From Candidatus Rokuibacteriota bacterium (lineage in GTDB: Bacteria > Methylomirabilota > Methylomirabilia > Rokubacteriales > CSP1-6), in NCBI GenBank assembly GCA_003221615.1, contig QHSQ01000168.1:1-40185 (forward strand): a DNA stretch of 40,185 nucleotides. The letters are read 5' to 3'. The notes under the pieces are model-generated. The model had not been told where the DNA came from. It saw only the letters and a program-made list of their open reading frames with translations, and did not search any database. Positions 13,207 to 31,347 of the stretch are shown in pieces. Positions within the stretch are counted from its first letter, which is position 1. Each line of letters begins with the position of its first letter. The position numbers were made by a program, and so were the translations under genes.

Positions 13207-14757
13207 ATGGAGCCCACGGCGGACGTCAAGCGCGTGTTCGGGAAGCTGACGTGGACGCAGCTCCTCGGCAACCTCCTCGGTGCGTTGCTCACGTGGTTCT
13301 ACTTCCGGTTCGTCGACTACACGGCGGTCCAGTTCCAGGTGGAGATCTCCCGCGCGGAGATCGTGTTCTTCGTCGTCGGCTTCGGCACGCTGATCGCGAT
13401 CGGGATCGCGTGGGGCTCGCGCTGGGCGCGCCCCCTCGAGCACGCCCACACGGTGGCGGGCTCCGAAGCCGCGCTCGTGCGCCGCCGCGCGATCCTGGTG
13501 CCGTACGTGTTTGCCGCGCTGTCGTTCAGCGGCTGGATCCTGGCCGGTCTCGTCTGGGGGGTCCTGTACCCGATTCTCTGGGGCATCTTCACACCGGCGC
13601 GTTCGCTCCGGTCGGTGTTCGGCATCACGTGCGTCGCGGGCAGCGTGACCGCCGTGCTCATCTTCTTCTCCGTCGAGCATCAGTGGCGCCGCGTGCTCCC
13701 GGTGTTCTTCCCCGGCGGCGACCTGAGCGCCGTGCCGGCGGTGCTCCGGCTCCGGGTCCGGATGCGGCTCCTCGTGATCTTCCTGATGCTGAGCGTCATC
13801 CCGCTCTCGCTCCTCGGGATCCTCTCCTACACGCGCGCCGCGGCGCTGTCGGGCGTCGATCCGGCGGCGGCGCCGCACATCGTCGAGAACATGCTGATCT
13901 TCATCGTCTTCTTCGTGGCCGTCGGCACCCTGGCCGCGATCGGGCTTTCGCTCTACGTCGCCGGGAGCGTTGCCGGCCCGCTCGGTCAGCTGCAGACTGC
14001 CATGGGCGACGTCGAGCGCGGCGATCTCGAGACGCGCTGTCCCGTCGTGACCAACGACGAGATCGGCGCGGTGGCCGAGGGCTTCAATCGCATGGTCGGC
14101 GGCCTGCGGGAGCGCGAGTTCTTGAAGGAGACGTTCGGCAAGTACGTGAGCCGCGAGGTCCGCGACGAGATCCTGGCCGGGCGGGTCACGCTCGAAGGCC
14201 AGGCGCAGGAGGTCACGGTCCTGTTCGCGGATCTCCGCGACTTCACGCCGTGGGTGGAGGCGACGAGCCCGCGCGAGGTGGTGCGCGACCTCAATGAATA
14301 CTTCACCGAGATGGACCAGGCCATCCGGGAGCACCGCGGGCTGGTGCTGCAGTTCATCGGCGACGAGATCGAGGCGGCGTTCGGCGCGCCGATCACGTAT
14401 CCCGCACACCCCGAGATGGCGGTGCGCGCCGCGCTCGAGATGCGCCGGCGCCTTCGCGCGTGGAACGCCGAGCGCGCCCGGGCCGGCAAGACTCCCCTCC
14501 GCCACGGCATCGGGATCCACACGGGTTCGGTGCTCGCGGGCAACATCGGGAGCTCCGAGCGTCACTCGTACGCCCTCGTCGGGGATCCGGTCAACCTCGC
14601 GTCGAGGATCCAGAGCCTCAACAAGGAATTCGGCTCCGACATCCTCGTCAGCGGGACTACTCGCCGCCACCTGGACGGTCAGTTCGAGCTCGTGCAGCTC
14701 CCGGCCGTGCGCGTGAAGGGAAAATCCGTGGAAGTCGAGGTCTATCGGCTAGTGTGA
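13207..14757 (+). CDS. Membrane adenylate/guanylate cyclase with HAMP domain
   Basis: A 516-residue class III nucleotide cyclase. About six hydrophobic segments (roughly 18-36, 51-69, 95-120, 135-155, 186-207, 227-253) precede a HAMP domain (about 253-306, with NDEIGAVAEGFNRM) and the catalytic domain (about 333-516). Metal-binding residues are D342 in LFADLRDFT and D386 in FIGDEIEAAFGAP; the transition-state N463 and R467 sit in GDPVNLASR. The usual purine-recognising lysine before the GD motif is Gln382, so ATP versus GTP preference is uncertain. It probably senses a signal through its membrane part. The stop overlaps the GTG of a receiver gene, implying a joint signalling unit. Confidence 0.94.
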   Translation: MEPTADVKRVFGKLTWTQLLGNLLGALLTWFYFRFVDYTAVQFQVEISRAEIVFFVVGFGTLIAIGIAWGSRWARPLEHAHTVAGSEAALVRRRAILVPYVFAALSFSGWILAGLVWGVLYPILWGIFTPARSLRSVFGITCVAGSVTAVLIFFSVEHQWRRVLPVFFPGGDLSAVPAVLRLRVRMRLLVIFLMLSVIPLSLLGILSYTRAAALSGVDPAAAPHIVENMLIFIVFFVAVGTLAAIGLSLYVAGSVAGPLGQLQTAMGDVERGDLETRCPVVTNDEIGAVAEGFNRMVGGLREREFLKETFGKYVSREVRDEILAGRVTLEGQAQEVTVLFADLRDFTPWVEATSPREVVRDLNEYFTEMDQAIREHRGLVLQFIGDEIEAAFGAPITYPAHPEMAVRAALEMRRRLRAWNAERARAGKTPLRHGIGIHTGSVLAGNIGSSERHSYALVGDPVNLASRIQSLNKEFGSDILVSGTTRRHLDGQFELVQLPAVRVKGKSVEVEVYRLV

Positions 14758-23469: not shown

Positions 23470-24939
23470 ATGGCGTACTCGACTGACTCGAAGTCCGCGG
23501 CCGTGCGCGCTCAGCTCGACCATCCCGTGATCGACGGCGACGGGCACTGGCTCGAGCCGGTGCCGATCTTCCTCGACTACCTCCGTGAGGTCGCCGGATC
23601 TACCGTCGTCGAGCGCTTCCGGAAGATGGCCACCGCGCACATCGACCGCGGCTGGTACGACATGACGCCGGCCGAGCGCCTCGATCGGCGGCCCACGCGC
23701 CCGACGTGGTGGGGCGAGCCGGCCAACACGCTCGACCGCGCGACCGCGATGATCCCGAAGCTCTTCTACGAGCGGCTCGACGACTTCGGGATCGACTTCG
23801 CGATGCTCTACACCTCGCTCGGCCTCTTCCACATCGCCAATCCGGACGAGGAGCTGCGCCGGGCCATCGCGCGCGCGGTCAACAGGATGAACGCGGAGAT
23901 GTTCAGGCCATACGCGCATCGCATCGCGCCGGCGGCGGTCGTGCCGGTGCACACGCCCCAGGAGGCGATCGACGAGGCGACCTACGCCGTGCGCGAGCTC
24001 GGCATGAAGGTCATCATGATCGCCAACCACGTGCGGCGCCCGGTGCCGGCGTTCGCCCGCACGGCGTCCGACCCCACACAGGTGCGCCACTTCGTCGACT
24101 CGCTCGCCTACGAGAGCCCCTACGACTACGACCCCCTCTGGGCCAGGTGCGTCGAGCTGAAGGTGGCGGTCACCGCGCACTCCGGCAGCATGGGCTGGAT
24201 GGGCCGCGAGTCGGTCAACAGCTTCACGTTCAACCACATCGGCCACTTCGCCACCGCGAGTCACGCGTTCGCCAAAGCGCTGATCCTCGGCGGTGTCGTG
24301 CACCGCTTCCCCTCGCTGCGGTTCGCGATGCTCGAGGGCGGCGTGGGCTGGGCCTGCAACCTCGTGACCGACCTGCTCGGCCACTGGGAGAAGCGCAACG
24401 GCCGCGCCATGGAAGCCCACACGCGACCGACGAACCTCGACAAGCAGGGGCTCAAAGATCTCTTTACCCGGTTCGGCGGGCGCGTCTACGAGGAGAAGAT
24501 GGACGAGCTGATGAGCTGCCTGAGCCTCGTGCCGCCGTTCAAGTCGGCCGAGGAGATGACCGAGCGAGAGTACCGAGGAGAGCTCGATGATTTCTCCGCG
24601 GCCCACGTCGGCTCGGCCGACGAGCTGCGCCGGCAGTTCTCCGAGCACTTCTACTTCGGGTGCGAGGCCGACGACCCGACGACGGCCTGGGCGTTCGACC
24701 GCCACGGTCACCATCGCCTGAACCCGATCTTCAGCTCCGACGTCGGTCACTTCGACGTGACCGACATGTCCGAGGTGCTGGAGGAGGCCCACGAGCTGGT
24801 CGAGCACGGCCTGATCACCATGGACGATTTCCGGGAGTTCGTCTTCGGCAACGCCGCGCGGCTTCATACCGCGCTGAACCCGGATTTCTTCAAGGGCACG
24901 GTGGTAGAGCACGCGGTCGCCAAGGAGCTCGTGCGCTGA
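23470..24939 (+). CDS. Amidohydrolase_2 family protein
   Basis: A 489-residue metal-dependent TIM-barrel hydrolase or decarboxylase of the Amidohydrolase_2 (PF04909) family. Metal ligands are suggested by IDGDGHWLEP near the N-terminus (a DxH-type motif), H in VTAHSGSMG, and SSDVGHFD near the C-terminus. Relatives act on aromatic acids such as ACMS- or resorcylate-like compounds; the substrate here is unknown. The start has two consecutive ATGs (23467, 23470); AGGAGG at 23459-23464 is only 2 nt from the first but 5 nt from the second, so I chose the second. A TTGACT box (23416-23421) may be part of its promoter. The stop overlaps the putative sirtuin start. Confidence 0.88.
   Translation: MAYSTDSKSAAVRAQLDHPVIDGDGHWLEPVPIFLDYLREVAGSTVVERFRKMATAHIDRGWYDMTPAERLDRRPTRPTWWGEPANTLDRATAMIPKLFYERLDDFGIDFAMLYTSLGLFHIANPDEELRRAIARAVNRMNAEMFRPYAHRIAPAAVVPVHTPQEAIDEATYAVRELGMKVIMIANHVRRPVPAFARTASDPTQVRHFVDSLAYESPYDYDPLWARCVELKVAVTAHSGSMGWMGRESVNSFTFNHIGHFATASHAFAKALILGGVVHRFPSLRFAMLEGGVGWACNLVTDLLGHWEKRNGRAMEAHTRPTNLDKQGLKDLFTRFGGRVYEEKMDELMSCLSLVPPFKSAEEMTEREYRGELDDFSAAHVGSADELRRQFSEHFYFGCEADDPTTAWAFDRHGHHRLNPIFSSDVGHFDVTDMSEVLEEAHELVEHGLITMDDFREFVFGNAARLHTALNPDFFKGTVVEHAVAKELVR
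24922..24927 (+). promoter_or_regulatory. Shine-Dalgarno AAGGAG deciding a CTG start for the sirtuin
   Basis: AAGGAG ends 8 nt before CTG at 24936. No ATG, GTG or TTG lies in frame between here and GTG 24981, which would begin within the first beta strand of the Rossmann fold. The position of this ribosome site is the main argument for initiation at CTG. Confidence 0.5.
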
Positions 24940-25682
24940 TCGACACCGTCCGCGAGTGGATCGACGAGGCCCAGTGCCTCGTGGCGCTCACGGGCGCCGG
25001 GATCTCGACGGACTCCGGGATCCCGGACTTCCGCGGCCCGCAGGGCGTCTGGACGAAGAACCCCGAGGCCGAGAAGCAGTCGACCCTGCAGAACTACGTG
25101 GCCGATCCCGAGGTGCGCCAGCGCGCGTGGCAGAGCCGGCTCACCTCGCCGGCCTGGAAGGCGGAGCCCAACGACGGTCATCGCGCCTTCGTCACTCTGG
25201 AGAAGCGCGGCAAGCTCGACACCCTGATCACGCAGAACATCGACGGGCTCCACGTGAAGGCCGGCTCGTCGCGCGACCGTGTGATCGAGATCCACGGCAC
25301 GATGCACGAGGTGGTGTGCCTGGCCTGCGGTGAGCGGGCGGCGATGGAGCGGGCGCTCGCGCGCGTGCGCGCCGGCGAGGACGACCCGCCGTGTCGGACG
25401 TGCGGCGGCATCCTCAAGTCGGCGACGATCTCGTTCGGTCAGGGGCTCGTGCAGGAAGACCTGCACCGCGCTCAGCGCGCCGCATCGAGCTGTGACCTGA
25501 TGCTCGCCGTCGGCACGAAGCTGTCGGTGTACCCGATCGCGGGGGTCGTGCCGGTCGCCAAGCGCGCCGGCGCCCGCGTCGTGATCCTCAATGCGGAGCC
25601 GACCGAGATGGACGAGCTGGCTGACGCCGTGCTGCGTGGCTCGATCTCGAGCCTCTTGCCCCGCCTGGTGGAGGGCGCCTGA
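24936..25682 (+). CDS. SIR2 family NAD-dependent protein deacylase (probable CTG start)
   Basis: A 248-residue sirtuin, which removes acyl groups from lysines while splitting NAD. Visible are GAGIS (20-24), PDFRGPQGVW (30-39), TQNIDGLH (99-106), the catalytic H120 in EIHGTMHE, a zinc site C128-x2-C131 and C153-x2-C156, and the end-of-fold LNAEPTE. Two motifs differ slightly from the family: SFGQ instead of FGE and GTKLSVYP where GTS is usual. The start is probably CTG 24936, overlapping the amidohydrolase stop (CTGA) with AAGGAG upstream; GTG 24981 is the alternative. It sits between two catabolic hydrolase genes and shares 1 nt with the next ATG, so its target may be an enzyme of this pathway. 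Confidence 0.9.
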   Translation: MIDTVREWIDEAQCLVALTGAGISTDSGIPDFRGPQGVWTKNPEAEKQSTLQNYVADPEVRQRAWQSRLTSPAWKAEPNDGHRAFVTLEKRGKLDTLITQNIDGLHVKAGSSRDRVIEIHGTMHEVVCLACGERAAMERALARVRAGEDDPPCRTCGGILKSATISFGQGLVQEDLHRAQRAASSCDLMLAVGTKLSVYPIAGVVPVAKRAGARVVILNAEPTEMDELADAVLRGSISSLLPRLVEGA

Positions 25683-28721: not shown

Positions 28722-29354
28722 TCAGGGTTGTAGACGGGTCGAGCGCCAGGAGCCGCCGCTGAAGCCCGCGTCGGTCGACGCGAGCGCGCGCGTCCACAGC
28801 GCCCGATCGTGGGCGCGCGCCGGCTGGCCCACCCACAGCTCGACGCGCTCGGCCCACACGCGGTAGCCTCCCCAGCGCTTGGGCCGGGGCAGATCGCCGC
28901 CGGCGCGCTTGGCCTCCAGCTCGACTTTCGCCAGAAACGCCGCGCGCGACTCGATCGGCTGGCTCTGGTCGCTGGCCGATGCCGCGACGCGCGCGTCACG
29001 CGGTCGCGAGCTCCAGTACGTGTCGGAGTCCGAGTCGGGTGCGAGGGTCACCGGACCTTCGATGCGCGCCTGCCGCTCGTGCGCGTCCCAGTTGAAGACG
29101 AGCGCCGCGTAGGGGTTGACGTCGAGCGCCTTGCCCTTGGCACTCTCGCGATCGGTGTAGAAGACGATCCAGCCGGCGCGGACGTCGATACCACGGCAGA
29201 TCACCATGCGCGCCGAGGGCCGGCCGTCGGGATCGACGGTCGCGAGCGTCATCGCGTGCGCGTTGCGGATATCGGCGAAGGCTTCCTTCAGCCAGCTGTC
29301 GAGGAGTGGCAGCGGGTCCGCCGGAAGGTCCGTGGGCAGCGCCGGCTTGGGGAT
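28722..29354 (-). CDS. pdxH: Pyridoxamine 5'-phosphate oxidase (probable ATC start)
   Basis: PdxH uses FMN and oxygen to make pyridoxal 5'-phosphate. The conserved core is clear: MTLATVDPDGRPSARMV, FYTDRESAKGKALDVNPYAALVFNW, RIEGPV, and the C-terminal signature ERVELWVGQPARAHDR followed by RLQP. The first in-frame ATG is at 29252, but the 33 codons upstream encode an ordinary PdxH N-terminus (DLPADPLPLLDSWLKEAF). The only strong ribosome site, AGGAGG (29366-29361), is 6 nt before an ATC codon at 29354-29352, and a TAG closes the frame at 29378. Starting there gives 210 residues, close to the family's usual length. A start at 29252 would truncate the protein. Confidence 0.85.
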   Translation of the reverse strand: MPKPALPTDLPADPLPLLDSWLKEAFADIRNAHAMTLATVDPDGRPSARMVICRGIDVRAGWIVFYTDRESAKGKALDVNPYAALVFNWDAHERQARIEGPVTLAPDSDSDTYWSSRPRDARVAASASDQSQPIESRAAFLAKVELEAKRAGGDLPRPKRWGGYRVWAERVELWVGQPARAHDRALWTRALASTDAGFSGGSWRSTRLQP

Positions 29355-29360
29355 GTCGAG

Positions 29361-29366
29361 CCTCCT
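29361..29366 (-). promoter_or_regulatory. Shine-Dalgarno AGGAGG upstream of a non-canonical pdxH start
   Basis: AGGAGG on the - strand, 6 nt before ATC at 29354. Its perfect match and spacing argue that translation begins at an isoleucine codon (or that an ATG mutated or was misread to ATC here). Confidence 0.5.
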
Positions 29367-29385
29367 GCCGGAAGACTACCTTATT

Positions 29386-29799
29386 TCATGGGCTCGGAGG
29401 CCGCCGCCGATTCACCAGGGTGGCGACGACGTGGACGATGTCGGTCGGGTCGATCGGCTTGCGGAGGTACACGTCGAAGCCGGCGGCGCGCGCCTCGCGG
29501 ACGCCGAACCGCTCGGAAAAGAACGTCACGGCGATCGCGGGTACGTCGCGGCCCGACGGCTGCGAGCGCACCCATCGGATGAGCTCCAGGCCGTTCTCGC
29601 CGGGCAGCCCGAGATCGCTCACGATGATGTCGACCTCGCCGGCGCCCAGGATCTGTCGGGCCTCCGCCACGGAGCCGGCGGTGATGACGGCAACGCCGTA
29701 CGGTTCGAGGGCAGCCGCGAGCAGCTGGACGGAATCGTGATGGTCGTCGACGACCAGCGCCTTGACTCCAGAAAGGACAGGTCGATCCACGGAGCTCAT
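29386..29799 (-). CDS. Single-domain response regulator (receiver)
   Basis: A 137-residue receiver without an output domain. It has D18/D19 in ALVVDDHHDS, phosphoacceptor D62 in IIVSDLGLPGENG, T92 in IAVTFF and K114 in YLRKPID. The pattern VVDDHHDSVQLL...LEPYGVAVITA is typical of CheY-like receivers attached to or working with hybrid histidine kinases. No kinase gene is nearby. It lies 31 bp upstream of pdxH on the same strand and 145 bp downstream of an unknown small gene, so it could have its own promoter. Confidence 0.9.
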   Translation of the reverse strand: MSSVDRPVLSGVKALVVDDHHDSVQLLAAALEPYGVAVITAGSVAEARQILGAGEVDIIVSDLGLPGENGLELIRWVRSQPSGRDVPAIAVTFFSERFGVREARAAGFDVYLRKPIDPTDIVHVVATLVNRRRPPSP

Positions 29800-30258: not shown

Positions 30259-31347
30259 TCAGTAGCCTTCCTCCTCCAGGAGCGGAAACGCGCTGGCCAC
30301 GTGCGCGGGCCGGACCGGCGACGCCGGATGGAGGTAGGACGAGTTGAGCGCCGAGAAGCGATCGACGCCGAGGAGCCCCAGGCAGATCCGGATCTCCTCT
30401 TCCAGGAGCTCGAACACCCGCACGAGACCCGCCTGGCCGGCGGCGGCGAGGCCACAGCAGCAGAGACGACCCATCCCGACCGCCTGCGCGCCGAGCGCGA
30501 TCGCCTTCACGACGTCGGTCCCCCGCATGAAAGAGCCGTCGACGATGATCGTCGAGCGCCCGCGCACGGCGGCGACCACTTCGGGCAGCACGTCGGCGCT
30601 GCCGCGCCCGTGGTCGAGCTGACGGCCGCCGTGGTTGGACACGTAAACGCCGTCGACCCCGTGATCGCACGCGAGCGCCGCGTCCTCCGCGGTGGCGATG
30701 CCCTTGAGGATCAGCGGGATGTCGTGGAGATCCTTGAAACGCTTCACGTGATCCCAGCTGAGCGCGGCCTGAAACTCCTGACCGGTCGCCCGCGTGCGCC
30801 AGGGCTTGACGAAGCGCCGGGCCAGATCGCGCTCGCGCCGGCTGTACATGGCCGTGTCCACGGTCAGGCAGAACGCGGCGTAGCCGTTGTCCTTCGCGCG
30901 CTTCACGTGCTCGTCCACCCACGCGTCGTCGCCGCGGACGTAGAGCTGGAAGATGCGGAAGTTGTCGGCGGCGGCGGCGACCGCCTCGAGCCCGGGATTG
31001 CAGACCGAGCTCAGCATCTGCGGCACGTTGAACTCGGCGGACGCCTTGGCGGCGGTGGCGCCGCCGCCCGGCTCGAAGGTCTCCACCGACCCGACGGGCG
31101 CGATCATGACCGGAATCCGTACGGTGCGCCCGAACAAGGTCGAGGTGCTGTCGATCTTCGAGACGTTGCGGAGCACGCGCGGCCGGAACGCGATCGAGTC
31201 GAGCGCCTGCCGATTGCGCCGTAGAGTGGTCTCGGTCTCGGTACCACCCGCGAGGTAGTCCCACGGTCCCGGGGCGAGGCTCAGCCGCGCCGCGCGCACG
31301 ATCTCGTGAAGTGTCTGGAACCTGTCTTCGAGCTTTGAAGGTGACAT
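30259..31347 (-). CDS. FMN-dependent alpha-hydroxyacid oxidizing protein
   Basis: A 362-residue member of the glycolate oxidase / L-lactate dehydrogenase / mandelate dehydrogenase family, which oxidises an alpha-hydroxyacid to a ketoacid with FMN. Family landmarks: WDYLAGGTETETTLRRNR (29-46, with Y31), MIAPVG (81-86), QLYVRGD (134-140), K215 in LILKGI, catalytic base H239 and R242 in SNHGGRQLDH, and VDGSFMRGTDVVKAIALGA. The usual GRP-x-Y/W-G segment is replaced by GRLCCCGL with three adjacent cysteines. The electron acceptor cannot be inferred. It heads the - strand run that continues through the small protein, receiver, PdxH and PyrE-like genes. Confidence 0.92.
   Translation of the reverse strand: MSPSKLEDRFQTLHEIVRAARLSLAPGPWDYLAGGTETETTLRRNRQALDSIAFRPRVLRNVSKIDSTSTLFGRTVRIPVMIAPVGSVETFEPGGGATAAKASAEFNVPQMLSSVCNPGLEAVAAAADNFRIFQLYVRGDDAWVDEHVKRAKDNGYAAFCLTVDTAMYSRRERDLARRFVKPWRTRATGQEFQAALSWDHVKRFKDLHDIPLILKGIATAEDAALACDHGVDGVYVSNHGGRQLDHGRGSADVLPEVVAAVRGRSTIIVDGSFMRGTDVVKAIALGAQAVGMGRLCCCGLAAAGQAGLVRVFELLEEEIRICLGLLGVDRFSALNSSYLHPASPVRPAHVASAFPLLEEEGY

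Follow-up and report, generated by a model that had tools for sequence, protein, structure and literature searches.

A putative non-AUG start codon for pdxH in a genus of uncultured Rokubacterial soil bacteria

The pdxH gene, which encodes a vitamin B6 enzyme, appears to be initiated at a non-AUG codon (AUC, AUU or GUU) in an uncultured genus of soil bacteria within Candidatus Rokuibacteriota. A probability of about 0.8 is assigned to initiation at this codon; the figure refers to the start codon alone and excludes any control by IF3. As judged from orthologue comparison, the genus-wide non-AUG start is probably real and of the kind known from infC and sigR. To our knowledge, very few bacterial genes start outside AUG, GUG and UUG. 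Starts at AUC, AUU or GUU are of the weak kind and are easily missed by gene finders. The genus was sampled with nine genomes, diverged at the species level, and pdxH was found in eight of them.

The pdxH locus and its N-terminal region

The following features were located in the window (the whole stretch of DNA analysed, 40,185 nucleotides).

28722..29354, minus strand: pdxH coding sequence, ATC to TGA, 210 aa, pyridoxamine/pyridoxine 5'-phosphate oxidase (profile matches, dN/dS)
29352..29354, minus strand: candidate start codon ATC of pdxH (orthologue alignment)
29361..29366, minus strand: Shine-Dalgarno (SD) sequence AGGAGG of pdxH, 6 nt 5' of ATC (motif and SD enrichment in the genus)
29376..29378, minus strand: in-frame TAG closing the pdxH frame on its 5' side, 7 codons upstream of ATC
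29250..29252, minus strand: first in-frame ATG of pdxH, internal (Met35), no SD upstream
29386..29799, minus strand: response-regulator receiver gene, flanked by pdxH and the FMN dehydrogenase gene
30259..31347, minus strand: FMN-dependent dehydrogenase gene (PF01070, profile match)
24936..25682, plus strand: Sir2-family deacetylase gene with a CTG start (24936-24938), AAGGAG at 24922-24927

The pdxH frame is open on the minus strand from the TAG (29378-29376) to the TGA stop codon (28724-28722), and one copy of the gene was found in the window genome. The open frame scored 185.5 bits against TIGR00558 (cut-off 180), which places it in the PdxH/PNPOx family, and 205.3 against NF004231 (cut-off 129); the cut-offs of PF01243 and PF10590 were also passed. 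AGGAGG (29366-29361) precedes ATC (29354-29352), as originally predicted; CTCGAC stands between them, a spacing of 6 bases, and the frame is closed by TAG upstream. The arrangement is judged not to be accidental; over the whole 40 kb window, that strand has nine occurrences of AGGAGG. The first ATG, GTG or TTG in frame is the ATG at 29252, codon 35 counting ATC as 1, and 34 codons, ATC included, lie 5' of it. A two-codon open reading frame, ATGAAATAAGG, lies directly before the pdxH leader (about 29380-29390, minus strand) and overlaps the stop codon of the response-regulator gene; its kin are ATGAAGTAAGG in G005 and ATGAAGCAAGG in G006.

Were translation of pdxH to begin instead at the internal ATG 29252, the protein would have 176 aa and the 34 preceding codons would be untranslated. 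This ATG is the first canonical codon in six of the eight species, is itself conserved, and is the likely choice of automatic annotation. An SD sequence was looked for before it and none was found. The preceding codons, moreover, have the marks of coding sequence. Over all pairs of the eight species, dN/dS was 0.25 for codons 3-34 and 0.17 for the rest downstream, so that purifying selection acts, on this measure, ahead of the internal ATG, where conserved PdxH N-terminal sequence had been predicted. W21, E24, A25 and N31 are invariant in 21/21 aligned sequences, reaching Planctomycetota and Proteobacteria, and the structure model has a helix at residues 15-26 with high confidence (mean pLDDT 93.1); a start at 29252 would cut this helix off. 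Alignment of the best solved PdxH chains to the window protein begins at residue 8 or 12. On the 5' side of ATC, 8 to 17 of 21 positions differ among three close species, and conservation therefore ends at the candidate start. In the orthologues the ATG is conserved but internal, after the conserved helix. By every indirect test the N-terminal region is translated, and initiation at 29252 is considered very unlikely.

Start codon, ribosome-binding site and initiator tRNA across the genus

The codon at the pdxH start position is ATC in the window, ATT in G005 and G006, and GTT in the five remaining species (G001, G002, G003, G007 and G008). From 15 codons upstream to 17 codons downstream of this position, ATG, GTG or TTG was found in none (0/8) of the genus orthologues. 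Beyond this span, an in-frame ATG lies at -16 in G006, not conserved and with no clear SD; a canonical start of pdxH there is conceivable for this one species among the eight. In G002, codon 19 (+18) is a GTG. In the other Rokubacterial orthologues an ATG or GTG lies at most 4 codons from the position (13/13), and in eight of these 13 outgroup sequences the start is aligned with codon 2 of the genus pdxH. Distant, partial or fragment matches (L016-L020, L027-L030 and L054) were left out of this alignment. The ninth genome of the genus, G004, lacks both pdxH and the neighbouring Sir2 gene, and the region may thus simply be missing there. Conservation across related species, by which starts of the infC and sigR type are recognized, extends to 8/8 pdxH-bearing genomes, and the non-canonical codon occupies a conserved start position behind an SD (weak in G005) with no canonical codon nearby.

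The original prediction had allowed for a sequencing or consensus error concealing a real ATG. The assembly that holds the window is indeed a draft, with 596 contigs and 8.55% contamination, but ATT is present at the same position in two sister species and GTT in five others, each in its own genome, and the missing canonical start is shared by eight diverged species-level genomes. Consensus error is refuted by these orthologues and was rejected as extremely improbable.

The SD of pdxH is AGGAGG in the window and in G006 and GGAGG in the GTT species, at 6-nt spacing in all seven, and a weak TAAGG in G005; codon 1 sits 6 nt from the SD in 7/8. SD use in the genus was argued from enrichment in place of the 16S tail, the pattern for which gave matches in 0/9 genomes. 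An SD-like motif was present at the matching distance from the canonical start in 36/152 conserved genus genes, against 2/152 at each of three shifted controls, and SD motifs are therefore real signals in this genus.

An altered initiator tRNA was also considered, and no sign of one was seen. A strict first stem-loop pattern gave one match, in G008, which was not a Met loop; a second pattern gave CAT loops in 6/9 genomes, one GGT loop (G001) and one GAT loop (window genome). ARAGORN called tRNA-Met(CAT) with an initiator-type loop at 4/9 loci, in four genomes, and no tRNA at the GAT match. At two loci (L138 and L143) the initiator anticodon loop sequence is exact, yet ARAGORN calls no tRNA. 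As the tRNA-Met(CAT) of initiator type shows nothing unusual in the genomes where it was found, initiation of pdxH would be near-cognate and SD-driven: the SD would place the initiator fMet-tRNA(CAU) on the near-cognate codon, and the resulting protein would begin Met-Pro-Lys or Met-Thr-Lys.

Overlap with the upstream gene and proposed origin of the start

In the five GTT species, the FMN dehydrogenase gene lies directly upstream of pdxH and overlaps it. The overlap reads GGAGGAAGARGGTTACTAAG, with GGT and TAA in 5/5, and pdxH starts before the FMN dehydrogenase gene has ended (GAR GGT TAC TAA G). GGT accounts for 8-9% of Gly codons in the genes counted in these five genomes. The same gene ends GGC TAC TGA in four non-overlapping relatives (the window, G005, G006 and the outgroup G033). 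The response-regulator gene before pdxH is present in the window and in G005 and absent from G006 and from the GTT species.

In the overlapping species, a +1 frameshift at UAC UAA G could yield a PdxH-FMN dehydrogenase fusion; alternatively, translation could start at codon 2 or at a CTG at codon 6. The frames do overlap at GGT TAC TAA G, preceded by a purine-rich stretch, and the outgroup starts that line up with codon 2 would suit initiation there. However, the genes lie apart in the window, G005 and G006, so that a fusion cannot be general; codon 2 is CCC, CCT or ACT, unlike any start codon; codon 6 is CTG, CTA or CTC, and CTG is thus not conserved; and it is codon 1 that stands at the 6-nt SD spacing in seven of the eight species. 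These alternatives are together regarded as improbable, and initiation at codon 1 is retained.

In the tree, which was rooted according to a pdxH tree that includes outgroups, the species with ATC or ATT make up a single clade inside the GTT species. As the latter are paraphyletic around this clade, the gene overlap is probably ancestral in the genus, and the ancestral pdxH start was probably lost when the gene was joined with the FMN dehydrogenase gene. An ancestral deletion would have joined the TAC T(GA) end of the upstream gene to AAG, the second codon of pdxH; had it run from within TGA to just past the GTG of pdxH, the product would be precisely TAC TAA G and the GTG start would be lost. 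The window clade would later have gained spacer DNA, by which the genes were separated while the non-AUG codon was kept, and the window species and G005 would then also have acquired the response-regulator gene between the two genes.

Other non-canonical starts and possible control by IF3

The original prediction mentioned another non-canonical start in the window with no gene named; the one found here belongs to the Sir2-family deacetylase gene, which starts with CTG, overlapping the upstream TGA as CTGA, in 8/8 genus genomes. In a comparison of 30 of the loci found, the matching codon in other genera was ATG, GTG or TTG at 14/22 loci; CTG is also present in two other genomes of the family, G019 and G067, and is followed by GTG in G067. 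The Sir2 gene of G034 (L172) has an in-frame TAA within the match. The infC start is ATC after GAGGAG or AAGGAG in 9/9 genus genomes (L067-L075). The infC ATC and the Sir2 CTG suggest that the genus uses non-canonical starts; tolerance of such starts in this lineage, as proposed at the outset, is supported by the infC codon and by the eight pdxH orthologues.

Further cases were sought among 234 conserved ORFs closed on the 5' side (redundant over eight genomes). The filter required 12 or more codons ahead of the first canonical one, an identity of 60% or higher, and third positions accounting for 55% or more of the differences. It was passed by pdxH in seven genomes and by one ORF pair (L120/L124), which resembles the antisense strand of the N-terminal region of a short-chain dehydrogenase. 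No further clear non-canonical start was found in this sampled survey, the sensitivity of which is limited because pdxH of G006 (ATG at -16) and the Sir2 gene went uncaught; the latter probably escaped since its open frame continues upstream. Looser methods of locating the onset of conservation flagged 43/244 and 54/331 ORFs, mostly with variable N-termini, and were set aside. In a thioredoxin-like ORF of G001 (L058, offsets 13386-13911, minus strand) the conserved part begins abruptly, and the frame is probably disrupted in that assembly.

infC is the textbook case of a non-AUG start. The pdxH of the window clade resembles it in having a conserved AUU or AUC start after an SD, but infC autoregulates its own factor, whereas no link between pdxH and translation is known, and other genera start it canonically. 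E. coli pcnB has an AUU start that limits expression of an enzyme unrelated to initiation, as the pdxH start may do; gene and organism differ. In the sigR paper, infC (the IF3 gene) is a known autoregulated case, and Streptomyces sigR has a GTC start (GTT in 2/34 species) after a strong AGGAGGTG and is repressed by IF3 (PMC5472188). Further likenesses are the GUU/GUC codon, the strong SD, genus-wide conservation and, in the GTT-species pdxH too, threonine as the next residue (PMC5472188). sigR differs in being a sigma factor with tested IF3 repression, and pdxH in that its codon switches between GTT and ATC/ATT and that five species have it overlapping the gene before it.

If pdxH behaves like infC and Streptomyces sigR, its initiation would be weak and discriminated against by IF3, and PdxH output would be low and sensitive to IF3. 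Counting against initiation at the candidate codon, GUU pairs poorly with the initiator anticodon, and an in vitro survey found IF3 to tolerate no pairs other than Watson-Crick ones at the first two bases (PMC10158994). The non-AUG start may, on the other hand, be real but unregulated, a relic of the gene fusion that is tolerated through a low need for PdxH or through ribosomes supplied by coupling to the upstream gene; this account competes with IF3 control only, not with the start codon, and is given slightly less than an even chance. In the overlap a change of GTT to GTG would alter the last residue of the upstream protein, so that GTG is not regainable there and the GTT codon may be trapped. 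No match to the window PdxH was found in 29/57 family genomes, draft ones included, as low need would have it. Nevertheless, in the separated clade (window, G005 and G006) ATG is one base change away and ATC or ATT has been kept in 3/3. A neutral relic and IF3 control of PdxH are about equally likely.

In the library searched, no paper dealt with pyridoxamine 5-phosphate oxidase and non-AUG start codons together, and of the four papers with GTT or GUU in a start-codon phrase the sigR paper was the only bacterial one (PMC5472188). The pdxH case unites a genus-wide missing canonical start, three codons at one position and a plausible gene-fusion origin. Automatic annotation would probably truncate PdxH in these genomes. 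That infC, pdxH, the Sir2 deacetylase gene and perhaps more genes form a shared IF3-gated layer of control in the genus is a doubtful but conceivable extension, under which falling IF3 activity would raise vitamin B6 salvage and protein deacetylation together. With initiation at AUC, AUU or GUU, pdxH would be a metabolic gene that has persisted without a canonical start through speciation.
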